Source: Dioscorea cayenensis subsp. rotundata
Lineage: Eukaryota; Streptophyta; Magnoliopsida; Dioscoreales; Dioscoreaceae
Direction of reading: 5' to 3'
Assembly (NCBI RefSeq): GCF_009730915.1
Contig: NC_052474.1
Coordinates: forward strand, 3,011,501 to 3,075,500
Length of the DNA stretch: 64,000 nt
The notes beneath the pieces were generated by a model. That model was given only the letters and a program-made list of their open reading frames with translations, made no database searches and was not told the origin of the DNA. The translations under genes and the position numbers were made by a program. This document shows, one piece after another, positions 7,537 through 64,000 of this stretch. Positions within the stretch are counted from its first letter, which is position 1; every line of letters begins with the position of its first letter.

Positions 7537-10500
7537 ATGGCGGCATCTCTCCACTACCCCGCCGCCTCCTGCTTGAACTCGCCTTCCATGAGGTCTCAAT
7601 CTTCATCTCCTTCTCACTTTCTTTGGATCTGCTTTGTTTTTGATGGCCCTTGATAGTGTTTTCTCTTCTAACCCGCTCTTCTTTTGATCTGTTTGCAGTT
7701 GCAAGACTAAGTCTTTCGTCGGATTGAAGCCCTTGTCCGCAGGTTTTTGCTTTTAATCTATGTTTTTTGAACAGTTCCCGTTTTAATGCTGGAGTGATGC
7801 TTTTTTGGTTCTGAGATCGTTTGTTCTCGATTGGGCAGGTGCTTTTGGTTCTGCGAAGCCGAATCTGAGTGCTGGTTTTCATTCGAAAGTCCATCAGAGC
7901 CTTTCATTGAGGTAAAATTGAAGAATTTTTTATCTTCATGGTTGCAATTGTTCAATGGAAGGCGTATTTGTTGCGTCTGGTGTGATTGGGTGGTTCATGG
8001 GATTTTAGGTTTCACTGCAACCTCATATTCAATTCACTTAGGCTTAGTTTCTAAATGTTAATCCCTACATTGTTGAAAAGCAATTGCTTGTTATCTTCCT
8101 GGATGTCTAATTTTGGTATCGAAAATTTTCATGCATACGAATAGTCATGCTTTACCAATTCTCAAGGTGCTCTTCGATAAATCTCATTCCAAGAGACTTT
8201 TTTTTTGGGTGTATTGTATTTTTATCATGTTTATTATGAAGAATTGATAGGTGATTTGGAAGATAAAACTGTTTATGAAGATAAGGCTTTACTGCTTTTG
8301 GTGAGGTTGATAGGCTAAAGATTGGCAAACTGGTTTATTGAAATGAAATTGAGACCATTTATGGATTCATATTGATGCCTTCTCCCAAAAGATTAAGGTT
8401 GTCAATACACCAAACATCAAACTTAATGTTATATCTCTAGTGTCATTATGAGTCTGCCTTCTGAAGGATTATTCTTCAAAGCATTCACTGTATTTTTTGT
8501 CACCTTGGTCTGATTAAAAAAACACATTTGGGAAAGAAGATTTATTCAACTAGTTAGTGTTATGCATTTTTTTGCTTAAGATATCTTGTATGTTGCAGGC
8601 TATCAAGCAGGAAGGGTATTCGCCCATGTGTGTATAATATGCCCATTGGTACTCCTCGAGTACCATATAGAACCCCTGGTGAAGGAACATGGCAGTGGGT
8701 CGATCTCTGGAATGCTCTTGTAAGATTTCATTTCATATTTCTGCAGAGTATTTAACAATTCTGCTATATCCTTTTTGAGTTTTATGTATAATATTGCATT
8801 ACTTAGTATCATATATTGTACTTTTGCAGTATCGAGATCGTGTTATTTTCATTGGTCAACCCATTGATGAGGAATTTAGTAACCAAATATTGGCTACAAT
8901 GTTGTACCTTGATAGCATTGAATCTTCGCAGAAGTTATATCTGTACATTAATGGCCCAGGTGGTGATGTAAGTAAATTATCAATTGGCTTCTATCTGTGT
9001 ATGCACCTTATATCAAATAAATATATTTATTACCCAACCTTGATAGTTATTCAGGGTTTAATATTTGAAAAATGATTGTAGTTACTTCCTCTGTAGCCTG
9101 GTATATTAGAATAACTTGCTTATCTCATTGCCATCATTTGCAGCTTACTCCAAGTATGGCAATATATGACACCATGCAAAGCTTGAAAAGTCCAGTTGCC
9201 ACCCAATGTGTAGGTTATGCCTACAACTTAGCAGCATTTCTTCTTGCAGCTGGAGAGAAGGTTTGATGGTTTGAATTTTTTCTACTTTATGCATATAACT
9301 TTATTTGTCAAAGCCAATAGGACTGCCTGGACTCAGATTTACTTTCTCAGAATATTGATTTTTGTTTCCTCGATGGTTTTGAATCTCATTAAGGGATAGC
9401 CGAACAGCGATGCCTCTTGCAAGAATTGCTCTACAATCCCCCGCTGGAGCAGCTCGTGGCCAGGTTTACCTTTTGATGATAAAGTTTCATTGACTTCATT
9501 GTTTGTAATGCCACCCATGTTTCTATTGTTTTCCTGATTTCTTTCACTCAGGCTGATGACATCCGTAATGAAGCAAATGAACTTTTACGGATCAAAGAAC
9601 ACCTGTTTGGAGAGCTGGCCAAAAAGACCGGCCAACCTCTTGAAAAGGTGTGTCTTGCTCAAATTTGATACTTTGCATGATTTTGCCAAATGTTTATGAT
9701 ATAATGTGGGGAGATGATTTAAGTATTTTTAGTTCTGATGAGAAGTGAATTCTTCTGTGTTATACAATTGTTAAGTTGTAAACTAGTTTCCCTGTGTAAT
9801 CACCAACATATTGTAACTTATCAATTACTCCTCTAGGTAGCTAATTTACCATATTAATTTTATAGCTACAAAACTGCAGAAAGTTTTAGCATTTGCCATT
9901 CTTCTTGTTGATTTCTATGCAGAAAAAGTGTCTTTGCACACATGTTAAGAAGGCTGGGAGTACTTCCTTCTCTTCGTTACGCAATTAATGTTTGAGTACC
10001 TTCAAGTTAATGTCGCTGGGTCAATCTTCTAATTCTACTAATAGGATATAGTGCGTTACAGTAATATTTTGATATCTGATTACATGTTAACCTTTTATGT
10101 TTAGCTTCTCTTGAAGGGCTAATTTTATGATGAGAATCAACTCTGTACAAAATTCATGAGTTGCAGATTGAGCATGAAGTACAAAAATCTTTTTTTGAGA
10201 AAGCATCACTCATTAAGGAAGGTTTTAGGGTTCATTTACTGCCTACCAAGTATACCAATTAACTATGCTATCACCAACTTGGAAGCTAGTTTTATGGTTT
10301 AAACCATTGATAAATTCATCTTGTCATATGTTGGGATAAAGTGTGATTCAACTAATTTAACTTCCATTATGCCAGTAAGTTTCTGCTTATGTTATAACCA
10401 ACATCAAACACTTTTGTAATGCCACAGATTAATAAGGATCTAAGCCGGATGAAGCGATTTACCGCTCAAGAAGCTCTAGAATATGGAATCATTGATCGTG

Positions 10501-10568
10501 TCCTCAGACCTGCAAGGATAAAGGCTGACGCTCCCCGCAAGGACTCTACGGGGCCTGGCATTGGTTGA
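7537..10568 (+). CDS. CLPR2: ClpR2, inactive subunit of the plastid Clp protease core, 9 exons, one apparent +1 frame step
   Basis: ClpR subunits are non-catalytic ClpP relatives that build the tetradecameric Clp core in the chloroplast stroma. Exons: 7537-7592, 7699-7742, 7839-7911, 8599-8719, 8830-8967, 9144-9260, 9394-9463, 9552-9647, 10428-10568. The N-terminal 55-60 residues are Ser/Ala/Leu-rich and look like a transit peptide. The mature part has [20 protein letters not shown], then the ClpP fold ([27 protein letters not shown]). The catalytic Ser position reads Asn ([14 protein letters not shown]) and the catalytic His position reads Gln ([10 protein letters not shown]), as in ClpR2 and not ClpP. 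The exons total 856 bases, one more than a multiple of three. The excess is in the first ten bases of exon 7 (9394-9403), where homologues have nine (Gly-X-Arg before TAMPL). Without it the product is 284 aa. This may be an assembly error. Confidence 0.92.
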
Positions 10569-10921
10569 TTGTCGTCCTGCTGACAAGTTGATCAAACCTC
10601 AAGCACTTGAGATTCAGATAGCTTTTTATGCTGCTGTGATTTATAAGGGAAATTTATTAAGATTGTAAATTGCTGATGATTTTGAACTTGATATGCTGTA
10701 CGAACAATTTGGTTTGTGTAACATTTTGAAGCTTATATCATTCAATGTTCTAGGATCCTCAATATTATCATTTGCTGGATGAATTTTTTGCGGTCAATCC
10801 CTGTAACGCTTTACAACACAATCAAATCCAATAAAAATAGATAAATTGGGATAAAACAATTTTATATTGAAATAAATATGTAGCCATTGCTAAAAAAGCT
10901 TATGACAATAAAATTAAGGAC
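10569..10921. other. Intergenic space between convergent CLPR2 and SICKLE-like genes
   Basis: 353 bp between two stop codons on opposite strands. It must hold both 3' untranslated regions. AT-rich, no other structure seen. Confidence 0.5.
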
Positions 10922-13585
10922 TTAATCTTGAACATCTGTTGCGTTATTAATAGCCTCTTCCAAAGATAGTGCAAGGTATTCAGCAAGACTTGACTGATGA
11001 GAATTATTACTAGTTTCAGTGCCACTTTCAACTACTTTGGCTTTCTTTGCCTGCAAAGATTTTGGGAGCCAGAAATCAGGGCCAGCTAAAGGCACAAGGA
11101 TATTCCCAACTACAGGTTTCAAGTTTTGCCAAGGATCTACAAGCATAGACTTGTTGTACAATTGCCCGGTCTCCTGCTGAGCTGAAGAACCACCCGGACC
11201 TCTTCCACCATGGCTCCATCCAGGACTCAGACTGTTTCTATGTCGACTTTCATGGTTAGAATGAAAGCTGCCTCTACCGGAATAACCCATTGGATTTCTT
11301 CCCCTTCCTGAACTTCCCCAGGTTGGGCTTGTAAACCCACCCCCGGAGTTATATGTAGGTCCCCGTGGTACAGAAGAATTAGGAGATCCTCTATACCCTG
11401 AGCAGGGCGCTCCAAATTGACCCGGGTGTCTCCATGAACCACCTGGTGGATAGTAAATCTGTGAACTTTGATTAGGAGATTGGTTCACATGAAATTGTTG
11501 GATTGGGGTATGTGGTGGATAATGCATCTGCAAGTTCTGATTAGGTGACTGGTTCATTGGGGTATGCGGTGGATAATGCATCTGCAAGTTCTGATTAGGT
11601 GACTGGTTCACCTGAAATTGTTGGGCGGGGGCATGACTGGCAGCCATCTGGAAGTTCCTTGGTCCGCCTGAAAAGACAAATTTGAGACAATCACAAACAT
11701 TTTCACAATATGATAGGTTTCACTTGTGCTTGAGGTGGAGATGCATCTATTAAAGAACATGAGTTACACATTACAAACTCGTCTATGAGGCCTTTAATAA
11801 TCACCCTAATTACTGAAACATCATCATAAATTGAGATACATGTCTCATTTAGCCATGTAGTTCTCCTATACAGAATATTAGGAGTGACATAAAGCAATAA
11901 TTTCCAATATTTTTCTCTCATCTTTGCTACTCCAAAGATATATCCATGGTCATTTCCAGCAAACCACAAGGAATCACTTAGGCTCCAAATTTCTTTGGAT
12001 TTAGCCCCTAAGCTAGGGGCTCATAGTCCATGCCATTTATAATTATGACCTATCTACAAATACCACTGCCTCTTGTGAATCATGGTTTCATTTCTAATCT
12101 GACTACTGAGAACTACCCCAATAATGAGAATGCAAGCCCTAAAAAACAGAAATAAGCTCAATCTCTCTTCATCTCGTTCAACCTGATATAAGATTGAAAT
12201 AGGTTGTTTTGATCATCTGTTGCTAATTATTTATTTTCCTTAATAAGAAAACATGTAAATTTTGTCTTAGTTTTCTATCATTTTCAATGATAAGCAAAGC
12301 TTTCTGTGAAAAAACTTCACTATAGGACAATCTAAGTAAGCAAAGTGTTCATTTAATTTCTAGGTTTTAACCCACACATCCAAAGGCAATCAGTCATACT
12401 GAGTGAAAAGCATCTGAATTCCTGCCCAACCATCACCACCACAAGACTGGTAAATAGCTATAGCATATGGATCAGTAGAATTGAAACAATAAAGGACTAT
12501 CTTCACACTATATTTGGCAAGATGAAAGCACAAGTTATGCAAGCAAAAATCTAGATCCATTTTCTCCCTTAAAGTAAAACAAGTAAAGGAAAGCTGATTC
12601 AACTATAATCATCAAAATAAGGTTGCAAAGTATGTAGCATTGAAAACATGACAGGATCTCGATACATAACCAAGAAAAGAAACGCCGCAAAGAAAAAATC
12701 TCTTCTATAGAACAAGCATTGAATTACATATATACATACACAGGTATAAAGGAAACATAGCAGCCATCATATTACGATGAAACCATGAATGTTAATTGAT
12801 CAGCATCACATCCAAGTATGTTGAAAAGTACAAAATTGTCTATATTCCAACATCAAATACGGCCACCCAAATTAGAATCTATAAGAATTTCACGAGTTGC
12901 AGATTCATTGATATATAAAGCTTCAATATTGACAACAATAGGTCATTTTACAATCTAAACGATCACTAACAAACTCGATAACATATGTAATTCATAATTA
13001 AAAAAAAAACTTCTAAAATTATCTTATAGACTACAAATGCAATCCAGGAGAAACGAATTCACAAACTCAGAACACATCATTCACTATAATTAAAAATAAA
13101 GGACATGGAAAACCAAAAGGAACTTCTCTAATGCACAAAAAGGTGTCAATTCTTAAACATCTAGAGAATAAAATAAACCCATGCATGCAAAATCCATAAC
13201 AATAAAAGATGAAGAAGAATCTAAACCCTAGTGAAAGAAATATATATATTTTTTTAAAAAAAAGGAATCAAGAGCGTGAATTACCAGAAGAGGGGGAAGG
13301 CGGAGGAGGCCGAGACACAGGCGAAGATGAGAAACCAGTATTATACGGGGGAAAGGCGCCTTTCCTCTTGGATCCAGAGAAGGCGGACATGGGGTCAGTG
13401 TAGTAATCGAATCTGGAAGACGGCGGAGTACTATCGATCCCCGGCGAGGAAAAAGGGGGATCATGGAGAAGGGGGTTGAAGAGACGAGGCAGAGGAGAAG
13501 AAGGTGATGGGGCGGAGGCGCCATCGGCGTCCATGCGGAGAGCTCGAAGCCTTTGGCGTCGCATCTCGGACGACTCCTCCTCCAT
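10922..13585 (-). CDS. SIC: SICKLE-like proline/serine-rich nuclear protein, 2 exons, 348 aa
   Basis: Arabidopsis SICKLE is a proline-rich protein that acts in microRNA biogenesis and intron turnover. Exon 1 is 13585-13285 and exon 2 11667-10922, joined in phase 1 across a 1.6-kb intron. I start at the internal Met of MEEESSEMRRQRLRALRMDA because SICKLE proteins begin with a short acidic stretch followed by an RRxRLxAMR-type motif; the frame stays open 34 codons further upstream (from 13687). The middle is low-complexity Pro/Gln/Asn and Gly/Ser/Arg sequence (SPTWGSSGRGRNPMGYSGRG). The C-terminus carries SMLVDPWQNLKPVVGNI and an acidic end. Exon 2 holds a near-perfect 54-bp tandem duplication. 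The family call rests on overall composition and the two end motifs, so it is moderate. Confidence 0.65.
11505..11612 (-). repeat. Tandem 54-bp duplication within SICKLE-like coding sequence
   Basis: Copies 11505-11558 and 11559-11612 differ at only a few positions. Each encodes 18 residues around NQSPNQNLQMHYPPHTP. A third, more diverged copy of the peptide (VNQSPNQSSQIYYPPGG) lies at the downstream (C-terminal) side. The unit length is a multiple of three, so the frame is kept. Confidence 0.9.
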
Positions 13586-13726
13586 GGTCGAAGAGTTGGG
13601 AAGCTGAGAACTAGGGCTTGGCGCCTTTTCAACTAAATCGAAGAATTGGGACGTCGTCAAGTCCAAATCCGAACTCGGACCCAACATTGATTTAATTCTG
13701 ACTCAAACCCGAGAGAAAGTTTAGAC

Positions 13727-13742
13727 CATCACTATATATAGG
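13727..13742 (-). promoter_or_regulatory. Likely TATA box of the SICKLE-like gene
   Basis: The minus strand reads CCTATATATAGTGA, about 145 bases upstream of the chosen ATG at 13585 and about 45 upstream of the alternative ATG at 13687. The position favours transcription starting near 13700 and leaves both ATGs possible. Confidence 0.4.
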
Positions 13743-14719
13743 TACTAGTTCGAGTGTGACTTGGAGCCCATTCATTTAATAAAATTGGTATTCTGGTATT
13801 ATTTAATTTATATACGTATAATAATAAAGTATAAACTAAGGATTAGAGTTTGTGTTTTATTTCCCTCATCAACAATATCAAATAAATGAAAACTAATATT
13901 CAACGTTCGTAGTAGTGTGTCGTGATGTCTCACATCACATGTTAGTCTGTCTCTATATAATAAATTTGTAAAGTCGTTAAGTCACTGTAATACCCTTAAT
14001 ATCTGCTTGTATTTTTTATTGTTGTTTTTGTAAAAAAAAAATAATCATCTTTTGGAACTGGTATTTTTTTTTTCCTCCGAGTAAAAAGTCAGAAAATCAA
14101 CTCCGATAACAATTAAGATGAATGAATTATTCACTTTATAGAAAAATTATAATAATTTGAGTCGTTGATGGCATCAATAATCTGCCGACATATTCCTCAT
14201 CCATTCAAGCAGCAAGATCCTGCTCAAAACAAGGAAAAGATAAATGATTAAGGCTTTCGGAGAAAAAGTTCTGTTGTTTAGGGTTACTCTCATAATTAGA
14301 AATAAAAAAAAGGCCAAAAAGAATATTAATAGAGTGCTTGCATTCATGAAACCCAGAAAACATTGGGTGGGTCTAGGTTCTGCAAATAGAGTGATCAGGC
14401 AAAAGATGTAAACTATTCAATTGCCATCAACACTAGAAAGAAATCAATCTAAGACAGATGGTGCTAGGCATTGTAAACATACTAACTCAAAAGTACTGGA
14501 ATATGCATAGAATTATAGAATTTAAATGCAGCAGCACAATACGTTCATATAGATATTTAATCTCTCTTTCCTGCTAGTCAACCTTAATCTAATCTATGCA
14601 TTTATACATAAATCAATCTAGATTACATTCAAATCTTCAAGCAACCTACTATATTGCTTTCACAGAATTGAAAACGGAGAATGATTACAGTTCTTGGCAA
14701 GCTTGAAGCAATCAGTGGC
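13743..14719. other. AT-rich intergenic stretch
   Basis: Contains short A and T runs and no frame I can support. It separates the SICKLE-like promoter from the orphan exon. Confidence 0.4.
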
Positions 14720-15180: not shown

Positions 15181-18100
15181 TCAACTACTTGGCAAAGAAA
15201 TGTTGATATCTGTTGAAGAGTTCCGATTATCTGGCATTGAATTTAGTGAGGGTGTCCAGTTTTCGGCCCGAAATGATGAGGAAGCTCCGACTGTTGGCTT
15301 GGCAGTCACTGAGCTCCGCTGCTCTTCTTGCTTGGCACCATGCGCCTCCTCTGTTTCCATGATTGAAATCGGCCTTGCAGTTGTCAATGGAGTTACTGAT
15401 GCAGGCTCATGTCTTGGCTTCTTTGACTTTTGCTCCATTTGGTAGCCGGGAATAAAGCTGCCGACAACAACCTAGTTTTGCAAGAAGTTAAGAGTGGTTT
15501 ATGTCACCAGAATACATTCTCAAGGATTCAAGGTAATCAATTATGAAAATATCCACAAATGCAATAGTTAGTGAAAACTGGAAAAAAAAAAAAAGTATTA
15601 CAGTGTACAACCTGATACTACAGCCCACATTGTTCTTAAAGAAACGAAGGTGTTAGGGTACTGTGTTCACCCCAATAAACAATGCCTGTTTTCATAAAAC
15701 GCCTATAATTTTACAAATTGAAACAAAAGCTGTACGTAAAAATAGAGCAGCAAGAGATCAATGCTGGATTTGAACTTTTGAACTTGAAGTCTGGTTAACA
15801 ATTTTCTGTCCAACTGACCCTGAAATATTTCTAAAATCATGACTCGGTGTTCAACATTAACATGAAATTTGCTTTCTTATGATTATTATAGTTTCAGAGC
15901 TAGAAGGATTACTATAACCTTTTTTAACTCTTATTGGAAAAATCATAATTATGTCATTTGGCATGACACATTACAGAAGGCACAAAAACATACAGATTAT
16001 AAGCATGCCTCACAGTACACCACAACCGACAAGATATCAGCAAGGAAAAAAAAGGAGAGAAATGAGAGACAAATCCAACAGCAAAGAATCTCATAACATG
16101 GAAAAGAAATTTGTACCTGCACAGGTCCAGCAGCCACCAATAGTCCAGCCAGACTTCCCCCGACAACACGCCCATCTGGACTGGCCAAAGATACACTAAT
16201 CCCACCATGTCGGCTCCTCGTCACCCCGTCATCAGTTGGCATAAATGATCCAGATAAAGAAAGCAACTCAAAGCGACCCTATGGAAAATGTCAGAATTCC
16301 AGCAATGTTATGCTTAACGGTAAAAATTCCAAATTGATGAATAAAATGTGCATCAAATACAAATATACAGCTGATGCAGTCAAGATATAGAACATTCAAT
16401 TATGAACTGAAGTTAAAAAATTGGGGAAGAAGATTGTTTCTTGTTCACATTCAGTTTTTGGATCACCAAAATTTTCCATGAAGAAAGAGTAGGGGTAACA
16501 ACACTAGAAAGTCCTGGTCATGAAGACTAACATGCAAATTAGATTTGTTCTATACTTAGCATCGAGTGGGCATGACTATTGGAGTCAAAGCTAACTCTAA
16601 ACTATTCCTATCAGTACATCGAGTTTCCTCCTTCTTTAGAGTCCTACACAACCAAACTTTTCGTAAGTAACAACCAAGCAAACATAAGAATATAAAGTAC
16701 AAGAATTTCTGGTCTTTGCACTCAAGCAGAAGATTCACAGCATAAGAAAATGGTGTTGCCCCTGGAGAACCAAGTGTAGACATATCAAGCTTTGAAAAAT
16801 CATGCCACCAATATCCCTTCAATAGTCGCACAAGACCACTTGAGGACTGTCATGGTATGCTCAGTAGCCATGTTTTCCATCTTTGTCATTTAAAACAAAA
16901 AATTTTGACAAGATTATTTTAGAAAAACCTTGTGTGGGTAATTGTTAATGGCATGAAATATCTCAATATGTCTTTATTTATTTATTATATTTAAAATTAA
17001 TCTTATGATAATAAAAAAATATATGCTTCATGTCTTTGTTTAATGGGATTAGAAGTTTATCTTGAATTTTTTATAATCAACATTTTTGGATTTATTGAAA
17101 GTACAAAATTAAATGTATATTGACTAATATATAAAGACAAATATCATATTTGATTTTCAAGAAAATGAAGAAATAGTTTTGACAAATGCGAACAAGCAAG
17201 AATTGTACGAGGACTCTCTATGACTATGATTTGTGATCATAGAGATCTATACAAATATAATGGTTGTTTTAACCCTTACCAACTTAATATTATTGTGCCT
17301 AATAACAAACACGCATAAACCTTTTCATAAAAAAAATATCTTGTTCTAGTATCCAAGACTTGATATTATTGCGTCAAAGTAACAAACATGCATAAACCAT
17401 TTCATAAAAAAATTATCTTGTTCTAGTATCCAAGATGTGATATAATTGCGTCAAGTAACAAACATGCATAAACCATTTCACAAAAACTTATTTTGTTTAA
17501 GCATCCAAGACAATTTACGTAAGGCATCATAACAATTATTTACCTTCTTTTTTCCTTTCTGCTTCCTTTTATTTTCTTTAATTTTGTTTGCCGTTTCTTC
17601 TTGTTTAAGTGTGTGGTGTAATATTCTTAAATATGTGTTAAATAATTTTCAATTATTTTAATATATTACGTGATAGATTATTACTCATTTCTTTAGTATG
17701 TTTCAATAGTCTCTAGTGTTTTTGCCTCCTATATACTATTATAATAATTATAATAATAATAGTTATTATTATTATTATTTAGCACTCATTAGAGCATCTC
17801 ATGGAATCATGGAATGTCATAACAAAAGAAACTTCAACCCTTAATCAAGTTGTCTCCTATCATACATTCTTAATGATTATCAATGGATGTCAAACAAACT
17901 TTTCACAAACTGATTTGATTGATAAACTCTAAAAATTAAGTTTTAAAAATTTATTTTTTATGAATTTCTAAAAAATGCAAAGATTATCCATTGAAGTTGA
18001 AAATATCTGGTTACTTTTCCATCAAATGAATTGAAAGGCCAACAAGAAGGAATCTCTATGGTATTCACTTATTAGGGCAAGGGGCAAGGGCCTATTTGTT

Positions 18101-26037: not shown

Positions 26038-27736
26038 CTAAGAACAGGATCTAATGAGCCCCAAGTTGAATAGATTCCTCTTAACTAAACTGCCTAAATA
26101 GAAAAGCCCAACCCCGGTGGCCTCTTCGCGGTCAGGTCTCTTCTGGCAGACCTGTTCCCGTGGTTCTTCCTTGACTGTGAGTACGCCAGCTCCGATTCTC
26201 TGTTGTATGCCAGCAATGGTCTTGAGATCGACCGGGTGGCCGGCGGAGCCAGTGACATAGAACACATTCACTGTTATATTGTCTCGAGTTGAGACCTCTG
26301 CTCTTGTCACTGAAAGACCATTTTCACGGAATGTGCGTGTTACATCGGCGAGCAAACCTCGTCGATGGACTGTACATAGTTCGAGTATCAATCCCTGCAG
26401 TAGATTAGGAAAGCTCTTAGCAAAATTTCACTAAATATATATACTGGTTTTGTTATCATACAAAGCAAGTTCAAGATTCATTTTATCAGAAAAGGTAATG
26501 AAAGTGTGCATTTTGGAAGGAAGATTCTATCTGCTATGCAACATTGAATGGCAAAATTGCAATCAAATTTGGGCGAAAGTTGAAGATTTGAACTGAGTTG
26601 AATGAATGATGTAGTTCATTTCATCAAATTGTAGCTAAAATTGCAGGAAAATAGAAATCGTAGTGAAGTGTTAATGCATTACCTCGGATGCTCTTCGCTC
26701 AATAGCAGCTTGCAAGCACTGAATCACACGCTGCCGCTCAGCCTCTGAGCTGATCGGAGTTCCATCCTTGTGACGAATGTAAAATTCCTGGAGAAAAAAA
26801 ATAAATTTCAGAAATAAGAACAAAAGATTTCAAAAAATGCAAGAAATTCCATTGAAACCAACCTGGTGAGCTCTATCTCCTTTGGTGTCGATAGTTCCAT
26901 GAAAGACGACGTACTCCATGTCCGTCAGGGTGCAAACAATGTCGAACAAGAGCTTCGGGCGATCCCGGCACTGAACGTTCACGACTGAGTACCCCCTCTC
27001 GATCCAGTTCTGAACAGAGACGGATGGCGCCGAGCAGGACTCCTCGCCGCCAGTCGACAAATCTTTCGTAGTCCCGGTCCTCGAACATCATCTGATGCAG
27101 CCTTCGATCAGCGTTCACACCAACCACTGTAGCCGCAGCCGAAACGGTGGCCCTGGAGCTGCGAATGTCGTCATCCCCTTTGAGCACATTCCTAAGCCGT
27201 GCTTCAATGCACTGGATCCTCTGCGCATCGTCGGCAATCGGGGAATCAGAGCCACCCTCGTCCTTGATAAAGGCGAGGGACGCGATCCGGCCGTTGTGAG
27301 TCCAGACGGTGGCGTCGGATACGCCACATTGGAGGTCGGAAAGGACGGCAAAGACCTCCGATAACAGTCCTGGGCGGTCGGTGCCGGTGAGTTCCAAAGC
27401 TGTGAAGCCATTAAGAACTTCAGATCTCGCTGAGCCACCAGTGCCCAAAGACCGCTCGATATACGAAATAACGCGGTCGTCGGCGAGCTTCCGGCCGAGG
27501 TGGTCAGTGACATGGAAGACGTCCATGAACCAGCGGCCATCAGAGGAGAAGTAAGCCTTGTTAATTGAAAGGTTTAGGTCAGCAAGCGCCTGAATAGCTT
27601 CAAGGAGGACGCCATGTTTGCGAGCGCTATCCACCTTGACAAGTGTGGCCGTGGGGCAAACAGCATTGTCGATGACTACCCTCGGGGTGTTCATCCTTGT
27701 GACGAACTTCTCATACTCATCCAAGCACCAGTCCAT
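26038..27736 (-). CDS. ACR-type ACT-domain repeat protein, 3 exons, about 444 aa, two apparent +1 frame steps
   Basis: Plant ACR proteins are built of repeated ACT (amino-acid-binding) domains and are thought to sense metabolites. Exons: 27736-26863, 26788-26683, 26394-26038. The start is [20 protein letters not shown]; a frame upstream to 27847 has no homology. ACT blocks seen: [60 protein letters not shown] and [20 protein letters not shown]. The family linker [13 protein letters not shown] is at about 27065-27105. The coding total is 1337 bases, two over a multiple of three. The frame steps by +1 just after DRDYE (near 27064-27067, an AAA run in the coding sense) and again after YIRHKDG (near 26760-26762, another AAA). 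With these allowed for, the length (444) matches the family. Either the copy is damaged or the assembly has insertion errors. Confidence 0.88.
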
Positions 27737-34886: not shown

Positions 34887-36785
34887 TCATACAATCCTGC
34901 CATGCCTAAACCCTCCATCCCCAGCATCCCCACCAGGATCTAAGCCACCTGGGGAATCATACCACTTTGCATTGTCGTGATAGAAGCCATCCACCTGAAT
35001 GGCAACAAGATTTGTGTCTGCAACCATCGATCCATGATGCCTCAAGGGCTTTATCAATTTTGATTCTTCCTCCTCTTCCTCACCACAATTGAGAATGCTC
35101 TTCTCATCAAAGTCACTACAGTCTTCCTTCATTAACCACTTCTCCGACTTGCAGGACTCACTCATAAGCATCTTTCTATCTTGGCATTCTGCTGCCATCC
35201 TATCCCATGGCACAATAGCCCCTAGCGCTCGATCAAAGTCACTCTCATCCTCTTCAATAATCTCATTGCCTTTGCTGAAGACACTATCCTGCCCATCAAG
35301 GTGGTGATCATGGTCAGTTGTCCAATGCTGAACATCATCATCACCAACCACCAGAGGCCCATCAGAATGGTGGTGTTCACCTACACTTCTAAGCCTATGC
35401 AAGATATCTGAAAGTTCTCCAGACAGTGAGCCTAGCAGCTCTTGAGGCATCTTGGAAATCCTCCCCTCCAACAACCCAACCTCAACCCTAATCGCCTGAA
35501 CCTGCTGCAGGACTGCCAAATGAGGGTCAACACCATCATCCTTTCCAAGAAGGCCAACAAAAGATTCAGGCTCTGTATCTTCTCTAATCCCATAAATTTC
35601 TGGATCCCGATCAAAGCCCCCTTTGTTACCAACCAACCGATGAATTATCCTCGCATTTCCATCAAGCGGACCTGGTTCGTGCCCGGAGTGCACCGCAAAC
35701 AGTTTGAAGACAGCTGTGCCCTCCTCCTGGTACACAAAGGTCTTGTCTTTCTCATTGTAATTGGTAATTGGGACTATGGCGCGAATACGAAAGCCACAAC
35801 CACATCGTTTGGAGGCATAAGGCTCCCTCTTTAAAACCCGAGCTTTCTTGGATGAGGAGCCAGTGGCAGACGAGGGCTCACCAGCTCGGTGGCATGCATA
35901 ATCCTTCACCTCCGCCATGAAAGGTTTATACCGGATATACTTCTGCCGGATGCACAGCACCACCTTATGCTTGGCCGCCAGCTGCTGCAGTCTGCGCGGG
36001 ACATCACTAGCGGGCACATCAAACGACTCCGTATACTCAAACCTTCGCCTCTTGGATCTCACCCCAGCAAGAGCAAAGTGTGCACCACCTCCAGCAGTTA
36101 AGGATGGCGAAGAACAAACAGGGCAAGCCGCAAGGCACACGCGGATGAACGATTCAGGAATGCCATAAAACTTCGCCCCAACAGTCCACGACTGCTTGAT
36201 ACGGTCGACAGTCTCCTTGAGCCCGAGATGCCGCAAGTCAGCATCGGCATGAGAAGCAGCAACAATGTCCTGCCACTGGTCAACATAGGAGACACGCTGG
36301 GAGGGGTTGTTCTTGAAATAAAGCACACCACCAGCGCCGGCATAGAGTTTGTCCTGGATACGCTTCCAGGCAGTGAGATACGCGGTATCCTCATTACGAT
36401 CCTTCCACACCGACCTCCAGGACTTCAAAACCGGGCGAGGGGTAGCTGCACGGATCTCATCAGGAGTTGCGAGCCGCCCCTCTAGGATGCACCGGACCAT
36501 AAGACCGTGAGACTCACGATTGAAGGTATAGAATTGGGAGGAGATGTGGGGAGCTGGGTCAACAAGAGGCGGAGGCGGAGGCGGGCGCTGCTGCTGCTGC
36601 TGCTGATCTGGAGCTAGATTAGGGTCAAGGGTCAAGGTCAGGGTCAGCGTTGCAGGGAGAAGAAGGGGATGGTTTGAGGTCAAGCTTGAGGTCGTCGTCG
36701 ATATCGTCATCGTCATCATCGTCGTCGCGGAAGATGAGAGAAGAGAAGGAAGGAGGAGGGGGGTGGGGATCGGGGTCATCGTCAT
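34887..36785 (-). CDS. Host gene with integrase-like HHCC zinc domain and a second Cys/His-rich domain, 632-aa frame
   Basis: A single uninterrupted frame. Residues 75-225 form a well-structured block: FYTFNRESHGLMVRCI, LKSWRSVWKDRNEDTAYLTA, VSYVDQWQDIVAASHADADL, RHLGLKETVDRIKQSWTVGA, KFYGIPESFIRVCLAACPVC. The spacing His179-x6-His186-x34-Cys221-x2-Cys224, with HLGLKETVDRI after the second His, is that of the H2C2 zinc domain of integrases. Residues about 255-400 hold basic segments, RCGCGFRIRAIVPI and AVFKLFAVHSGHEPGP, a Cys/His arrangement reminiscent of WRKY-GCM1/FLYWCH-type fingers. The rest is acidic and probably disordered. No catalytic core is present, so this is read as an exapted host gene, perhaps a DNA-binding protein. 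The N-terminus is uncertain: an overlapping acidic frame from an ATG at 36969 (MPKSSSPSPTV, then Asp-rich) also looks protein-like. Confidence 0.75.
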   Translation of the reverse strand: MTMTPIPTPLLLPSLLSSSATTMMTMTISTTTSSLTSNHPLLLPATLTLTLTLDPNLAPDQQQQQQRPPPPPPLVDPAPHISSQFYTFNRESHGLMVRCILEGRLATPDEIRAATPRPVLKSWRSVWKDRNEDTAYLTAWKRIQDKLYAGAGGVLYFKNNPSQRVSYVDQWQDIVAASHADADLRHLGLKETVDRIKQSWTVGAKFYGIPESFIRVCLAACPVCSSPSLTAGGGAHFALAGVRSKRRRFEYTESFDVPASDVPRRLQQLAAKHKVVLCIRQKYIRYKPFMAEVKDYACHRAGEPSSATGSSSKKARVLKREPYASKRCGCGFRIRAIVPITNYNEKDKTFVYQEEGTAVFKLFAVHSGHEPGPLDGNARIIHRLVGNKGGFDRDPEIYGIREDTEPESFVGLLGKDDGVDPHLAVLQQVQAIRVEVGLLEGRISKMPQELLGSLSGELSDILHRLRSVGEHHHSDGPLVVGDDDVQHWTTDHDHHLDGQDSVFSKGNEIIEEDESDFDRALGAIVPWDRMAAECQDRKMLMSESCKSEKWLMKEDCSDFDEKSILNCGEEEEEESKLIKPLRHHGSMVADTNLVAIQVDGFYHDNAKWYDSPGGLDPGGDAGDGGFRHGRIV

Positions 36786-36969
36786 CGTCCATGAGAAGGA
36801 GTGAGTGGGGGAAAGGGGGAAGAAGGGGGTCGAGATCAGAGGAGTGATGAGGAGGGTTTAGGGTTAGGGTTTGGGATTGGGATTGGGATTGGGGATTGTG
36901 GGATTTGAGAAGAAGTGTTGGGGGCGTCATTGGGGTGACTGTCGGAGATGGAGATGATGACTTCGGCAT

Positions 36970-42887: not shown

Positions 42888-43887
42888 NNNNNNNNNNNNN
42901 NNNNNNNNNNNNNNNNNNNNNNNNNNNNNNNNNNNNNNNNNNNNNNNNNNNNNNNNNNNNNNNNNNNNNNNNNNNNNNNNNNNNNNNNNNNNNNNNNNNN
43001 NNNNNNNNNNNNNNNNNNNNNNNNNNNNNNNNNNNNNNNNNNNNNNNNNNNNNNNNNNNNNNNNNNNNNNNNNNNNNNNNNNNNNNNNNNNNNNNNNNNN
43101 NNNNNNNNNNNNNNNNNNNNNNNNNNNNNNNNNNNNNNNNNNNNNNNNNNNNNNNNNNNNNNNNNNNNNNNNNNNNNNNNNNNNNNNNNNNNNNNNNNNN
43201 NNNNNNNNNNNNNNNNNNNNNNNNNNNNNNNNNNNNNNNNNNNNNNNNNNNNNNNNNNNNNNNNNNNNNNNNNNNNNNNNNNNNNNNNNNNNNNNNNNNN
43301 NNNNNNNNNNNNNNNNNNNNNNNNNNNNNNNNNNNNNNNNNNNNNNNNNNNNNNNNNNNNNNNNNNNNNNNNNNNNNNNNNNNNNNNNNNNNNNNNNNNN
43401 NNNNNNNNNNNNNNNNNNNNNNNNNNNNNNNNNNNNNNNNNNNNNNNNNNNNNNNNNNNNNNNNNNNNNNNNNNNNNNNNNNNNNNNNNNNNNNNNNNNN
43501 NNNNNNNNNNNNNNNNNNNNNNNNNNNNNNNNNNNNNNNNNNNNNNNNNNNNNNNNNNNNNNNNNNNNNNNNNNNNNNNNNNNNNNNNNNNNNNNNNNNN
43601 NNNNNNNNNNNNNNNNNNNNNNNNNNNNNNNNNNNNNNNNNNNNNNNNNNNNNNNNNNNNNNNNNNNNNNNNNNNNNNNNNNNNNNNNNNNNNNNNNNNN
43701 NNNNNNNNNNNNNNNNNNNNNNNNNNNNNNNNNNNNNNNNNNNNNNNNNNNNNNNNNNNNNNNNNNNNNNNNNNNNNNNNNNNNNNNNNNNNNNNNNNNN
43801 NNNNNNNNNNNNNNNNNNNNNNNNNNNNNNNNNNNNNNNNNNNNNNNNNNNNNNNNNNNNNNNNNNNNNNNNNNNNNNNNNNNNNNN
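42888..43887. other. Assembly gap, exactly 1000 N
   Basis: A placeholder of round length, so the true gap size is unknown. The frames that seem to cross it are artefacts. It begins about 570 bp after the LBD18-like stop. Confidence 0.99.
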
Positions 43888-51901: not shown

Positions 51902-51932
<31 letters not shown>

Positions 51933-51948: not shown

Positions 51949-53495
51949 TTAACAGAGAATTTCATCTTCTCTCTGTGTACCTTCATGTTGAACTTCAGTC
52001 ACTATAGAAGCCAACTTGTGAGCCTTGTCAGCTTCAGCAACCCAATCAATAAGAAGCACAAAAACAAGCAACAAAATGAAGCTAATGAAAGCACCAACAA
52101 GAAGCCCAAATAAAAGACCTGAAAGCCCCATTCCAAGCCTAAAAGAGAAGGTCACTGAGAGTGGCAAAGCCACAAGGTAAAACCCTCCAAGACTAGCATA
52201 CATTCCCATCCATGGCCTTGCTGTTCCCCTTGCTATCCCTCCACACACAGCCAAAGGGAAGTTCACCAGCTCAACAATAGCCATAAGCATCATGATCCTC
52301 TTTCACTAAATTAGTAACCAGCTTATCATGGCTGAACAACGAACTCCACTCTCCTCTCGCAGCAAACATCACTGATCCTCCAAAGAACCCAGAAATCACT
52401 GCAACACCTAGAGAAACATAGGCTGAGCTCCGAGCAAGCATGGCCCGGCCAGCACCAAGCTCATTAGACACACGTGTGGATGCACATGTGGCTAATGATA
52501 GCATTACAGAGAAGATCAGATAGTCAAAGTTAAGCATTACAGCAAGCACCACTACTGCTCTTTGGGCATTTGGTAGTCTCCCAGCCAGAAGAACAAGAAT
52601 CTCATAGCACCACCATTCAAGGCAAGTGGTCAAGCAACATGGTGCTGAGAGCTTTAGCAACCTAACCCACTCACTCACACTTTGCTCCAGCCACCCACCA
52701 CCTTTGTTCCCTTCTTTTATGAACAAGTATAATGCTAGCAAAATGGTGACAACTAGATCAGTGAGCCAGACGGCCATGGCCACACCAGTCATCCCCATGG
52801 CCTTTGAAAGTAAGATGTTGAGTGGAATATGTATGGCTAGACCTACTGCAGAGCTGAAGAGTGTTGGTAAGGTTATACCTTGTGAGCTGAGATAGGCTTT
52901 CAGTGGATATAGAAAAGAAGTCACAACCAAGTCAGGAAGAAGGTAAATAATATACTTCTTTGCAAGTTTAGTGATGTCTTCCTGTTGGCCAAAGAGGATG
53001 AGTATCTTGTCCAAGCTGAGCCACAGGAAGGAGATGGGAATACAAACAATCAAAAAGCACCAGGATAGTCATTAGGAGAGTCTTATGAAGAAGCTTATAG
53101 TTTCTAGCACCATAAGCTTGGCCACATATGGGCTCCATGGCGTAGGAGAGGCCGGCTAAGACCGAAAAGCCGGTGACATTGGCGAAGGTGAAGCCGAGAG
53201 TTCCTCCGGCCATGTGAAGCTCTCCAAGTCGGCCTAAGTAAGCAGTGGTGATGGCTGTCTTGAGAAACCAAGTGAGATTCATTGCGACCAAAGGAATTGC
53301 AATCCCTCTCTGCTCTTTGAGCTCTGAGAAGATGATGTGCTTCATGTCCATGAGCCATTTGGGAAAGAAGGATGAAGATGAAGATAAAGAAGGTGGTGGA
53401 GGTGATGCTATCTCTCTTTGAGTATATGCTTCTTCTGCTTCTTCTTCTTCTTCTTCAACCTTTGATGGCATGTTGCACGAGAGGTGGTGTTCCAT
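51949..53495 (-). CDS. MATE/DTX family transporter, intronless, about 514 aa, two apparent +1 frame steps
   Basis: MATE proteins are 12-span antiporters exporting organic cations, hormones or metabolites. The frame starts at 53495 with an acidic, Ser-rich cytosolic N-terminus. Family blocks follow: ELKEQRGIAIPLVAMNLTWF, AYLGRLGELHMAGGTLGFTF, SYAMEPICGQAYGARNYKLL, SFLWLSLDKILILFGQ, YLSSQGITLPTLFSSAVGLA, STRVSNELGAGRA and GGIARGTARPWMGMYASLGG. The lack of introns and the sequence style match the DTX48-51 (ADP1/BCD1/ELS1) clade. The frame steps by +1 twice: near 53052-53056 (a run of five T in the coding sense, before IVCIPISF) and near 52297-52298 (GG, before IMMLMAIVELVNF). The total of 1547 bases is two over a multiple of three. 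Nothing else is degraded, so assembly error is at least as likely as a pseudogene. Confidence 0.88.
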
Positions 53496-56400: not shown

Positions 56401-58221
56401 TGACATGCTGTGATGTGTCAAAGCTCTTTAGCATTGTCCTAAAACTTCTCTTTATCAAAAGAACACACACTACTTTTTCCTTTTTTTCATTTGAATCCAT
56501 GCAGTGAGCTATACAAAGACATTGATGAGAATTCTTGCCACCCTTTTGGAAATCCCAAAGGACCTCTTTTCCCATTTTTTACATCACAAATGGTATTCTT
56601 TGTTCTTTTGCCTTGTCTCCTCCTTTCTCTTCCAAGAGCACATGCATGGCTCCACCCTTGAGACTTTCTTACTTCTTTGCTGGCACCAGTGCGAACTCTG
56701 AACCACATGCCAAGGAGTTGGGATGGTCTCAACCTTAATAAATGGTATTTCATTAATTTCAATGTGATCTCATAAGTACTCACTTTCTTAGAAGGTGCAC
56801 TTAGTTTTTCTAGTTTTAGTTGCCAAAGTTGATTGTTTGGTTGTTGATATATATCCAAATGTTTTTATTAGTTGGGACTTGGTATTCAAATAATTCCTTT
56901 GTTTGCACCCTTATATAATTTTTGGGAGTTAGTACTTAGCATCTACCATTTTGTTTCTTTTTAAAATTTGTACTTAATTTTCTAATGAAGACGAATATGA
57001 GGTTGGAACAGCAATGCACAACCCCATGCATGCATGAAAGTGTTCAACCAAAACACGCTTGAAGAGTTTTAGTAGAGGAGGAGGTGGTTTAGGGTTTAAC
57101 TCCAATGGGGCCCTTGCTCTGTTGTCCTTATGAGAGGGGTATCCTTTGGGCAAGAGTAACATGGCCTTCATGTGCCTAACAGAGATTGGGGGGGTCACCA
57201 TCCCTCTCTCTTTCTTTCTCTCTCATTGTCTACACTTTTTACTGCTTATGTATTAACATGTGTTGCTGGTCCCCAGGGTTGATCTCACCAGTGAATATTG
57301 TTCACAGAACATGGGGGCACAATGAGTATGACTCTTGCCCAATCAAATTGTTTCATACTAAACTCAAGTCGATCATATATCTCTACATATCTATTTTATT
57401 TATACCTCCTAATTATTTAGTATTATGAAAATTTGGGTCATGAGTGTGATGCAGGTACAACAATGTACTCAAACTTGTATGTATCTGTCAATCTGTGTGT
57501 ATGTGTAGTATATGTACAGCATGCATGCCACAACCACCAACTTCAAGAAGAGTACATAAATAGTAGTACTTGGTTTAAACCTTTTGAAGGGAGTAGGCAT
57601 CACTGATCACTGAGTAGGTCTGCCTCTTGCAAGTGGTGAGGATGGTGTGGTCCCTCAAAAGGATGAATGATAACTGAGAAGAAAGAGATTTAAAGGATCC
57701 AAAGCACACAAGGGTACGGTCATGTACCTGCATACCACCACAACAGTGTGAGAGAGAGATAGAGAGAACAGCTCTTTAAATATTCTAACAAGATCATGAT
57801 CACAATGAAATCTTTCTCACTACTCTTTGTACGCCAAGGACCAACTGAAAACCGCTCAATTCTAGCATTCAAGTGGGCTTGCGTGCAGGACCAGTGATTC
57901 TCAAATACATGGCTAGAATTCCAAACTAGCTTTCAAGTGATGAGAGATTGAAACCAACCAAACGCACCAGTAACTTCATGCATGCATTAACTGCATGTGG
58001 ACCACGTACTACGTCTTAGCTTCACCAATAAATCTACTCCTTTGTTGTACGTAAACGTTGTAATAATAGTTCAGTTGCTTAAGAAAATATTATAAATTAA
58101 GGATATATATATATATATATATGATCAATGGATAGAGAGAGAGGAATCAAGCTGAGGGCCATGCATGTCCAAAGAAAAGGCAGCAAGAGGGATTAAAGCC
58201 CCAGACTTAGCGTCCTTTACT
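53496..58221. other. MATE upstream region and gene-poor DNA
   Basis: No gene supported over about 4.7 kb. Minus-strand frames at 56487-56858 and 56974-57201 look mildly protein-like but match nothing I know. (TA)n tracts lie near 54322, 55045 and 58105; 57200-57230 and 58261-58293 are CT-rich. Confidence 0.45.
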
Positions 58222-58293
58222 CTATAAACACAACCCCACAACCCACCCGTGCCTTGTCCTTCCCTCTCCCTCTCTCTCTCTTTCTCTCTCTCT
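58222..58293 (+). promoter_or_regulatory. SAUR core promoter and CT-rich leader
   Basis: CTATAAAC at 58222-58229 is a plausible TATA box. It is followed at about 58261-58293 by a CT-rich tract typical of plant leaders. A second TATA-like CATAAATAG near 58338 is nearer the ATG (58438), so the start site is not settled. Confidence 0.4.
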
Positions 58294-58437
58294 CATCCTT
58301 CCACATGCTCTTGTTTATTTTCTTCTCTTTCCCTTCCATAAATAGACCCCCTGACTCCATTCTCCCTTTCATCATCTCTTGTTTCTCATCATCCTCTTCT
58401 TCTCTTTGATCCCTCTAGTGCACAAACAAATCAACCT

Positions 58438-58755
58438 ATGGCTCTTAGGAAGAACAACAAGCTTTCACAGGCTGCAGCACTGAAACAAATACTGAAAAGA
58501 TGCTCAAGCCTCGGGAGAAAACAAGGGTATGGAGAGGAGGATGGGCTCCCACAAGATGTTCCCAAAGGCCACTTTGCAGTGTATGTGGGTGAGAATAGGA
58601 GTAGGTTCATAGTGCCTATCTCCTACTTAACTCACCCTGAGTTCCAAACACTGCTTCAGAGAGCTGAAGAGGAGTTTGGGTTCCACCATGACATGGGTCT
58701 CACCATCCCTTGTGAAGAGGTTGTCTTTCGTTCTCTCACTTCCATGCTTAATTAG
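58438..58755 (+). CDS. SAUR (small auxin-up RNA) protein, SAUR50/SAUR10-like, 105 aa
   Basis: SAUR proteins are short auxin-induced growth promoters; many inhibit PP2C.D phosphatases and so activate the plasma-membrane proton pump. The frame is intronless, as in the family. It has a basic N-terminus ([22 protein letters not shown]), then the SAUR domain at about 35-103: [60 protein letters not shown]. It ends FRSLTSMLN. The length is typical. The closest clade by eye is SAUR10/SAUR50. It is isolated, not part of a tandem SAUR cluster in this window. Confidence 0.95.
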
Positions 58756-58959
58756 TTAAACTCAACCATGAGAAGTACGTGAAGTCAAGAAGAAGAGATC
58801 ATGGAGGAGTTTGTTTGAAGGAAAGAAGTTGAGAACCATGTATGCATGTACATGCATGGCTTGTTTTCCTTCTGGTTTTTGCTCCTCTGTGAGTTTCTAA
58901 CTATTTAAAAAAAACCCAGTGAGACATGTTCATGGGTTTGATTTGTTGTACATTTTAGA

Positions 58960-58979
58960 GCGGCGTGCGGTTGCGCCGC
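58960..58979 (+). other. GC hairpin in the SAUR 3' untranslated region
   Basis: GCGGCG and CGCCGC form a 6-bp stem around the 8-nt loop TGCGGTTG, about 200 bases after the stop. It stands out in AT-rich flanks. A role in RNA stability is possible but unproven. Confidence 0.45.
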
Positions 58980-61900
58980 CCTGCAAGAGCTGATTCATTA
59001 GTTAATGTTGAAGTTCATTCCGGGGGCTCACTTCCCTGTTTTTCTATCTTTTTTTTATCTTGTTAATCATCTCATTCTTAGTTCTAATTATTTTAATGCT
59101 TCTTCTCATCATGGTGGTTCCATTAACAAAGAGAAAAATTATCATATATATATATATATATATATCCAAACTGTAATTTTCATAAGCAATAATCCCATAT
59201 ATATGTATGCAGATGTTGTTAATAAAACAGAGTAGAATGCAAATTGCTCATGTTTCACAGAAGATGAGAAATATTTATTTATTTATTTAGAAGAGTTTTA
59301 AAATTGTGCTATTATAATGGGAAACTAGCTCCAACCATTCAGGAGTGCAAAGTTTTGGAAACTTAAAGACTATATCATCCCTCTCTCTGTTTTATTTTGT
59401 AAGTGGGAATACCATATGAAGGTAAACATATTTAATTGGCTAGCTTTTACACTCAACATGTTACGGATAATGAATCATCTTCTATTTTATTGTTTATATA
59501 ATTATTCTTATTATTTTTGTGATAACTGATAACATGTGGAGGCTTTATTTTCCACAAAATGAATATAATATCTCCTGACAATGAATTAGAATACACAAAG
59601 CCCGGTGAAGAGAAAGCTCACATTCACTAAAAAGAAAAAGTGGTGATACCGATGAAGAGAGAGCGAGGACCATGATGTTGTTGAATCTGACTTGGTATCA
59701 CCAACATTGCCATTCTGATGTATTATTTATTAATTATACTCTCTGTTTTTTTGTACTATACTTAACAGTCATGAACTTTTTAAATTTGTGAGTTATCAAT
59801 TTTATTACTCCAGTACTGGCACCTTTTTCTCAGCATTAATTGTCACAAATATCTTGATTCTCTTCAAATCTGAAACTTCATGAAATCAATCTGCATGATA
59901 ATTATTAACAAGTGTGTCTCTGATAAATTAAATTAATATCCCCAAAGAGATCTCAAAGTGTGTCATTTATTTGTCTCAATCCCCCCCGCATGTGCATGCT
60001 GCCTTCCAAAAATGAAATTTCCTACTGTATTACTCCCAACTGTCAAGGCTCCACCCACTGTAGCCATGCTTGAAATCAGCATTCATGATCTAAGCTCAAA
60101 TCCATCCATTGATGTCACCAACCACTGTACAACCTTGGCAGTAAATTTAAATTTTTACTTTAATTTTTACTGCATGCCCCAAGTTTTTAATCCCCTCAAA
60201 TATATAGGACCACTGCAACAAAAAGGCTGCAAAGCCTCTCTCAAATCTCATCCAATCACAGACCACCTCCATCCACCTACAAAATATCTGGCTTGTATTG
60301 CACCTCTCCTCATCCACTAGTCCTAAACAAAATCATCTAACTCTTGTCTCTTTGCATGCCCATGCATTATGCATGCATGCACTAACATATATATATATAT
60401 ATATATACTATTATGCTAACATAGTAAAGAAAGAGGTCTTGCAGGACTAGGAAATTGAACCTGAAGGTTGTAATCAAGTTTAGTATCAAAAGGACAAGTT
60501 CTGTAATTGAAATCAAAAACAAAAGATTCACAAGAATCACAGTACTCTTCCCTTTTTCTTTTAGTACCATATTCTCTCTGTTAGATCTTTTCTGTCAGGA
60601 CTGTGGCACCAAATTTCAACTGTACATCTAATGCAAAAGCATGCATGAATGATCTTGTTTTCAACACTCCATTTAACTCCACAGTGAAGGAGTTGGATTT
60701 GGTGGATCTATAGGCTGTCTCATTAGAGTTATTTAAGTAATGCTCCCTAAGTATTGACAAAATGTACAGCCAAAGTAGGTTGGTTGCAGATACTGTTGAG
60801 TCTGGACCAACATTATGTTGATCTTCAGATGATGAACATATATATATATATATATATATATGTGGTGCATTTTGATCCACTAATCTTCCATTTAGTTTTC
60901 ATTAATCTTTATGTGAGTTTGTATATACAAGAGTGGTTGACCGTACTTGTGAACCAAATATTTCGGTGCATGATTTTAGAAATACATATATATATATGAT
61001 TAAGGATGATTAGTGTAAGATATATACAAACTAATAATTCAGAATGTCAAGTAAACGGAAACAATTAAATGATAACATAAAACAAGTTACAAGGACTACT
61101 TGCAAGCTACGAAGTGTACTTGAAAAATAAGATGAGGCTGTCAAACTAGCACAATATTTAAGAAGGGACGTGATTGGTTTCTGAGTAGTCTAAATCAATG
61201 AAAAAGACACTGTTTAGATGTGGTTTATTAGTAGTTCTCATCAGATAATATACCTCACAATTTGGCATGTTACATGATCCTCAAATACATAATGCATGAC
61301 CAAACTCTATATAAATCAGTCCAAATCAAGTATAAGATGATGCTTGAGAGTTGTTCATGAGTTGCTAACATATACCCTCCTCTGTCTTCTGGTCCAGTAT
61401 TCCAGGTAGGCTGGGTTGCTTTCCATACAGCTATATATATATATATATATATATATTTAGATGTATGTATGTATGTTGTATATGATAATATCATATTATA
61501 ATATATGTATAACAAGTACATGCAAAATGGTGTGCATGTGGGAAAGAGGACCCAAATGAAGGAGAGTGGAGGGAGGCAATGAAGTGTTTCAGATGAAGGA
61601 GGTTATCAATGGGCCAGGGCATGTCTGTGGGAGTGTTTTATTAATTAGGAATTGGGTCTATGATGATCAACACAGCTGGGTTGTGGCTGTGGTGACCATC
61701 ACTTAACCAACTAGGACTTGTTGATGGCCCCCACCTGTTTCTCCTCAAATTTCATATAGTATTTTTTATCATCCTAATAATATAATCAAGTTAAGTGCTT
61801 TTTTTAAAATTTATATCCTATGGAAAATACAAGGAAATACTGAAGGTTTGTATATATGTATGTATATATATATATATATATCCAAGAGTAATCAAGAAAC

Positions 61901-62577
61901 CACTTTAGTGATCCAAGTCCCTCAATCATATAAACCTTTAGCATTTCCTTGTATTTTTGCCATTGGAACTGTGAATATATTTTTAGAATAACTCTGTAAT
62001 TTGGAACTTTTTAATAATAAATAAAATTATCAATGAGACAGCTCATAAGTCATTGTGGTGAGGATAAGAATCATAAGATATAGAATAAAAAAATATGTGA
62101 CACAAGAGCACCAACCCAAAATACTGGAAAAGTACAAGTTGATAATCAATCTACCATACATGAAAATCCAAAAAGAAATCCCACAAATATTAATAATGGC
62201 TCTCAAATTCATTGCTAGCATTCAAGACAATCTCCAAAACAAATCAAAGTGTTATACAAATCTGAAAGAAGTACAACAAACTCATGAAATTAATAATTTG
62301 TCAGGACGAACATATGATGATGGTTCTTGGGTGGAGAAGGCCTTATTTCTTTCTATACAACAACAGATAATGTGACACTGCTAAACAAATCATACATATC
62401 AAAACTCATCTCCAAAGAAAGAAAGATATAATTCTCCAAGCAAATATACAGTGAGATTTCCTTGTGACAGGCACAAATTTTTCGGCTTCAGGTATCAGAG
62501 AGGCGGCCATTTATGAAGAATGGAAGTCAACAGGAGCAAATGGCTTCAAAATAAAAAGGATGAACTACATTGAGTTC
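58980..62577. other. Intergenic AT-rich region
   Basis: No supported gene. (TA)n tracts at about 59144, 60389, 60838, 61434 and 61861. A + strand frame at 59958-60320 (120 codons) is in slightly less AT-rich DNA but has no recognisable domain. Confidence 0.45.
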
Positions 62578-64000
62578 CTAGTGATCATTCTTGCTTTTGG
62601 AGAAAAATCGGCTGAAGCCACGTCCGTGTTTTTCAGTAACCATCATACTTGAAATGGAAGAAGACGACGATGATCTAGACGACCTTTGCTTTCTGGCGCT
62701 TAGAGCTAACTGGTGATCTTGGAAATGAGGTTGATTCATTGTCAGAAGGAATCATGTATCCATCTAAAGGAGATTCACCGCCGGTTATCCTTGTGTTGTT
62801 GCCGCCAACCTTTTCTGTCTCAGAGTAATCTGATTGTTGTGGGCTAGGAAGGCTTCGTGGATGAAAACCGCTTGAACTTGGTTCATCTTCGACAATGCCA
62901 TCACTCATTCGCCGCCCATCATTCAGAGAGGAGGCCATTAGCTCAGCTGGTGGACGCATGGCGTTTAGTTGCTTGCTGAGAAGAAATATGGTCTCTTGAC
63001 ATTCAGCAAGCTTCTCTGCAGCTGCAGCAATCTCCTTTTCCTGTTGAGTAACAAGATATATCATAAAGAAAACTATTTTGATAAATCATGGGAATATGTT
63101 TGTAAGAAAATTGAATTATGGAGAGATAAGAAAGGTTGATTCTGAGTAGTAGACAGAATTTAACTATTAATGAATTGTGAAAAACATCTTTCAAATGGAA
63201 GAATTCTAAATAATGATACAGGGTTATGGTTAATCAGTTGGGGAAATGGCACCAATAAGTTGACGATAATTCTGAAGTTGTGATTCAATTGAGTAGAAAC
63301 TAGAATGAAATCAGGTTACATCAAATTCCATACATGACATATCAATCAGAAAATCTTTACATCAGCAAGATTATCTAGAAATAGAAAAATAATTTATCAA
63401 TCATAAATATGAAAGCCAAGCTAAAAGTAGAAAAATTTTTGAAATATATATGTATGGCGCTCAACAAAAGGTATTATGCCCAACAACATTAGCTTAATGT
63501 GATAATATTATAGCATCAGTTAGTAAAGGAAAAGGAACAATCAGTTAGTCAATTTGCAGATAGTGTCATTGTCCATACCTGTTTTGTCTTGATGTCTGAG
63601 TCACCTTCCACAGGAATGGAACAAGTTGCACACTTCTCGTTCCTTCATGGAAATGAGAAGTCATGAGAGATCAACAAGAAACAGCAGTGAAAATATTCAA
63701 AGAGCTTAAATGCAAGCCTATAAAACACAAGGGACGCCCTAGAACCTACTAACAAATTTGAAATAAGTAATACTATAACTCTAAATGGCAACAAAGAAGG
63801 AAAAAAACGTCTCCCCGGAAGAGGAAGATATGCTTAGGTATATTGAGTCCTGACCTTTCCATCTTTTTCTTGAAGTTCAATGTATTTGACTAAATCATCT
63901 TGATGGCAACGCTTTTCTTCCTGAAGCTCATCATCCAAAGTTTCTGCCTTCATACGAAGCTGGTCTATCTCAGATTCTAATTCTTGAGTGCGAGATTCCA
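62578..64000 (-). CDS. Filament-like plant protein (FPP/DUF869), C-terminal part, two apparent +1 frame steps
   Basis: FPPs are long coiled-coil proteins; some bind microtubule- or MAG2-linked partners. The gene runs off the window end. Exons: 63855 to beyond 64000, 63642-63579, 63040-62578. Coiled coil (SRTQELESEIDQLRMKAETL) leads into NEKCATCSIPVEGDSDIKTK and then the conserved EKEIAAAAEKLAECQETIFL LSKQL. The tail has DNESTSFPRSPVSSKRQKAK, a Ser run, and EKHGRGFSRFFSKSKNDH, the usual FPP ending. Two +1 steps are seen. One is near 63863, where LQEK should pass through MERNEKC across the splice site. The other is near 62683-62684; without allowing for it the frame stops at 62675, 32 codons early. 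Flanking sequence is well conserved, which favours consensus errors. Confidence 0.85.

Follow-up and report, generated by a model that had tools for sequence, protein, structure and literature searches.

The 64-kb window, by which we mean the whole stretch of DNA that was analyzed, holds plant nuclear DNA, and the 11 genes examined in it amount to 12,259 coding bases. Pfam matches name the MATE, ClpP-type, ACT, FPP, DUF668, and SAUR genes; the names enolase, AHL, LBD, SICKLE-like, and FRS-like, as well as the assignment to ClpR2 inside the ClpP family, are assumptions, some of them carried over from an earlier reading. Over 34 introns, the splice sites comprise 33 GT-AG pairs and one GC-AG pair; exon ends were placed at splice dinucleotides, which makes the intact splice sites partly a matter of construction, and this does not apply to the exon phases. 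Self-comparison for duplicated DNA returned two short pairs, and tRNA and Rfam searches found no structural RNA that might carry insertions. After the LBD-like gene, exactly 1000 N occupy positions 42888-43887, probably a scaffold gap of fixed size.

In five of the genes, totaling 6,493 coding bases, the reading frame changes within coding sequence (Table 1). Each step was checked by three-frame reading and by locating the peptides on its two sides.

Table 1. Genes with changes of reading frame, and the steps placed in them (positions within the window)
Feature	Position	Strand	Basis and remarks
ClpR2-like gene	7537..10568	+	9 exons, 856 coding bases (1 mod 3)
+1 step, start of ClpR2 exon 7	9394..9397	+	Phase and profile spacing
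ACT-domain (ACR-like) gene	26038..27736	-	3 exons, 1336 bases (1 mod 3); ACT / ACR9 Pfam matches, phases
ACR exon 2, without the step claimed at 26760-26762	26683..26787	-	Single open frame, entered and left in phase 0
+1 step, ACR exon 1	27058..27062	-	Frame change RDYER / STGGEE; tracker places 27064 +1
Intronless plant gene, family putative (FRS-like)	34887..36969	-	2083 bases (1 mod 3); codon-usage tracker
+1 step, FRS-like gene, absent from earlier list	36621..36668	-	Codon-usage windows, frame 0 to frame 1
MATE (DETOXIFICATION-type) gene	51949..53495	-	Intronless, 1547 bases (2 mod 3); MatE Pfam; 5Y50, 5YCK, 5XJJ matches
Second +1 step, MATE	52294..52298	-	DTX14 spacing, MatE profile
+1 step in run of five, MATE	53051..53055	-	DTX14 spacing, MatE profile
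Filament-like plant protein (FPP) gene, 3′ part	62578..63998	-	Truncated by window end; Pfam PF05911
+1 step, last FPP exon	62686..62690	-	Frame 0 to 1; tracker places 62677 +1
+1 step, end of first visible FPP exon	63855..63868	-	Phase 0 at the end of exon 63998-63855, against phase 2 required by the next exon

Pieces of the MATE gene align with Arabidopsis DTX14 (5Y50) at residues 9-100, 100-354, and 367-449. At the first step, the last base aligned with DTX14 residue 99 is 53055 and the first aligned with residue 100 is 53053, which leaves one base over, and the MatE profile agrees; a frame tracker based on codon usage locates this step at 53003, 48 bases off the place given by homology. 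At the second, the 12 DTX14 residues 355-366 correspond to 37 bases, or 12 codons plus one, and the MatE profile continues from 112 to 113 over the step. By this spacing, both MATE steps are gains of one base. The total of 1547 bases and the two +1 steps given for this gene in the preliminary description were confirmed by the exon sum, by DTX14 and MatE spacing, and by the tracker.

For the ClpR2-like gene, the CLP_protease profile of Pfam matched four of the five exon pieces scanned (none on the 22-residue piece at 9398-9463), and all eight introns are GT-AG. Exon 6 (9144-9260) closes in phase 0, and good sequence restarts at 9398, one base late, with the stop of the first frame at or adjoining the step. 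Exon 7 has 70 bases, or 23 codons plus one; the Pfam positions that fall to it, 99-121, number 23 residues, and the profile passes from 98 to 122 across it, a spacing that shows the gain of one base. This exon is too short for the frame tracker, and the step is placed by phase and homology; the exon sum of 856 and the single +1 step described earlier both stood on these grounds. The 5′ end of the gene gave a candidate -1 step that was rejected, as the phase is recovered through exons 7699-7742 and 7839-7911.

The exons of the ACR-like gene sum to 1336 bases (874+105+357), or 1 mod 3, and not to the 1337 claimed before. In exon 1, RDYER closes at 27062 and STGGEE opens at 27057 in the next frame. 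Of the two steps claimed for this gene, the one at 27062-27058 is retained on the strength of this frame change and of the tracker, and the one at 26760-26762 was rejected: exon 26787-26683 is open throughout, with phase 0 on both sides, and its phases fit the total.

Two of the four FPP pieces scanned matched PF05911, at profile positions 768-812 and 836-869, and the stretch past the step at 62690-62686 had no Pfam match. Between positions 812 and 836 (23 residues) lie 73 bases, an excess of one codon plus one base or, alternatively, of two codons less two bases. The exon of the first FPP step is again too short for the tracker, and the step is based on phase and homology. Both +1 steps claimed for FPP were recovered, with the one described at 62683-62684 moved by a few bases to 62690-62686.

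An additional +1 step was found in the minus-strand gene at 36969-34887, which we take to be FRS/FAR1-like and which gave no Pfam match above the cut-off. Codon usage favors frame 0 for the N-terminal part of this gene and frame 1 for its body, and the tracker puts the step at 36627 at all penalties, a call that is independent of homology and was not blind, the second open frame having already been seen in the list of open reading frames. In frame 0, the third positions of a run of aspartate codons vary between C and T, the pattern that selection on this frame would leave, and the stop of the first frame is at or adjoining the step.

The enolase, SICKLE-like, AHL, LBD, DUF668, and SAUR genes, with 5,766 coding bases, have no steps, and all six, in agreement with the preliminary description, have coding lengths divisible by three and lack internal stops. 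A -1 step called in DUF668 by the first version of the tracker was rejected, as its reading frame runs uninterrupted to the stop and the DUF668 Pfam match covers residues 373-459.

Several features of these genes were recorded separately. Of the 16 introns of the enolase-like gene, 15 have a GT donor and one, after exon 1730-1674, has GC. Coding exon 2 of the SICKLE-like gene contains a 54-base tandem duplication (11502-11610, 98% matches) that is a whole number of codons long, and the AHL intron between exons 19254-19123 and 16278-16117 has a 77-base unit present three times in tandem (17282-17511, 86% matches).

The tracker was trained on the codon usage of other genes, charged an equal penalty for both signs, and was run at four penalties; the positions that it gives are rough. 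With stop codons strongly penalized, every one of the four penalties yielded two +1 steps in MATE and one each in the FRS-like gene, ACR exon 1, and the last FPP exon. Of eight other stretches, seven gave no step at any penalty (SAUR, part of SICKLE-like exon 2, two from LBD, two of the five AHL exons, and one of the 17 enolase exons). DUF668, the remaining one, had no step at penalties of at least 14 and showed a compensating -1/+1 pair at 10. At penalty 18 the first version missed the steps in ACR and FPP, and it produced the false -1 in DUF668 because stop codons were only weakly penalized; the null used with this version (codon-shuffled clean ORFs, 0 false steps) was therefore too easy. 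When one-base changes were planted in five genes, 278 of 300 +1 changes and 254 of 300 -1 changes were called correctly, with weak recovery of -1 changes in LBD (25 of 60). As planted steps of both signs are detected, the lack of -1 steps is not due to blindness of the tracker, and the earlier claim that there are none holds as far as tested, no -1 step having been accepted from either the tracker or the exon phases.

The corrected tally is seven steps, all +1, in five of the 11 genes, or one per 1,751 coding bases. Six of the seven +1 steps originally claimed are kept (one in ClpR2, one in ACR, two in MATE, and two in FPP), the second ACR step is dropped, and that in the FRS-like gene is added; the rate, put earlier at about 1 per 1.5 kb, becomes about 1 per 1.75 kb. 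One sign in seven of seven steps has a two-sided p of 0.016 against equal odds, a modest value, and the spread over the 11 genes is compatible with a single uniform rate (dispersion p = 0.23). The longest single-base runs touching the seven step intervals measure 3, 3, 5, 2, 5, 3, and 4, exceeding those of random coding intervals of equal width with P = 0.0026 for intervals set after inspection; an earlier form with six narrower intervals, likewise set after inspection, gave P = 0.0225. By spacing against relatives, three of the seven steps (both in MATE and the one in ClpR2) are one-base gains; for these three the count decided between a gain of one and a loss of two, and for the steps in ACR and the FRS-like gene and the second in FPP it did not. 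The pieces flanking the steps are open frames with intact splice sites, no further stop or lost splice site was found in the five affected genes, and larger deletions were checked where the profile or DTX14 spacing was countable.

We consider it very probable that the seven +1 steps arose as single-base insertion errors that persisted in the consensus of a plant genome assembled from long reads. All seven are one-base steps in otherwise intact coding sequence, and all are +1 with a tracker that finds both signs; the one sign, the one base, the uniform spread, and the otherwise healthy genes fit an insertion-type consensus error. The preliminary description had proposed this origin, and after correction it still explains the data best; an unlisted gene adds one more step of the same sign. 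Each error would have added one base, often at a short single-base run, and left exons, splice sites, and codons intact on both sides, and the extra bases would be absent from the plant itself. From the sign we would guess at a PacBio-type assembly of raw reads with little short-read correction. Real slippage mutations favor short runs too, which counts against the error reading.

Indel errors that cause frameshifts in long-read assemblies were reportedly described by Watson and Warr in 2019. The present case resembles those errors, as PMC12007338 describes them, in that one-base indels break otherwise intact conserved genes, and differs in consisting of insertions only (seven of seven) and in that the error is deduced from the sequence. 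In one bacterial long-read assembly, presumably made on a nanopore platform, the indels detected were mostly false deletions, and insertion errors occurred without a particular homopolymer (PMC12007338); this counts against the error reading, in that the insertion sign fits only some platforms. For an unpolished PacBio human assembly, 434 of 2,153 conserved transcripts were frameshifted, and 8 frameshifts were left once it was polished (PMC7466960). For Wolbachia wAu, a comparison of PacBio with Illumina gave 88 indels, mostly single-base PacBio insertions in homopolymers (PMC4223829), and our steps resemble these as probable single-base insertions that may likewise favor single-base runs; that genome is bacterial and its errors were shown with Illumina reads, whereas here some runs are only two or three long and the errors are deduced.

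The steps are present in the sequence as given, and the MATE and ACR families could each lose one copy, so that five genes might be real pseudogenes that independently gained recent one-base insertions, two of them twice. We regard this as improbable: no other stop or splice lesion and no -1 step accompanies the insertions, and the mixture of lesions expected of decay was not found, with larger deletions partly covered. If insertions accounted for between one quarter and one third of small indels in nature, seven of seven would have a probability of 0.00006 to 0.0004. Loss of ClpR2 is also severe: Arabidopsis clpr2 null mutants were strongly pale on sucrose medium (PMC5447895), which argues against real gene loss here, subject to the copy number of ClpR2 in this plant. 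The same source also weakens this argument, as a tobacco line with 3% of the normal CLPR2 transcript survived and set seed.

A mosaic of two haplotypes seems slightly less probable still; here a diploid genome would have been collapsed in assembly, and false frame steps would have come from stitching alleles together or from choosing the allele with the indel at heterozygous positions. Both signs would be expected of it, and one-base indel alleles are rare in conserved coding exons; a mosaic has been reported for Trypanosoma brucei (PMC8445201). Programmed +1 ribosomal frameshifting in the affected genes would agree with the sign of every step and with the position of the first-frame stop in ClpR2 and the FRS-like gene, and yet we find it extremely improbable, for the frame listings, judged by eye, reveal no common motif or stop spacing, the next first-frame stop follows the step at distances from none (ClpR2) to tens of codons (ACR and the first MATE step), and MATE and ClpP relatives can be aligned over the places of the steps in a single chain or profile. 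It is just as hard to credit that the extra bases exist in the plant and that it makes these proteins by widespread +1 recoding of nuclear messages. Consensus error is likelier than pseudogenes, a haplotype mosaic, or recoding, each taken singly.

Were the extra bases genuine, recoding of nuclear genes in a plant would be a remarkable finding; as biology, the steps most likely mean nothing, and we see no new biology in them. Their value is as a warning, since gene prediction would get five of the 11 genes studied wrong or class them as pseudogenes, claims of gene loss drawn from the assembly would be inflated, and gene predictions here need checking.
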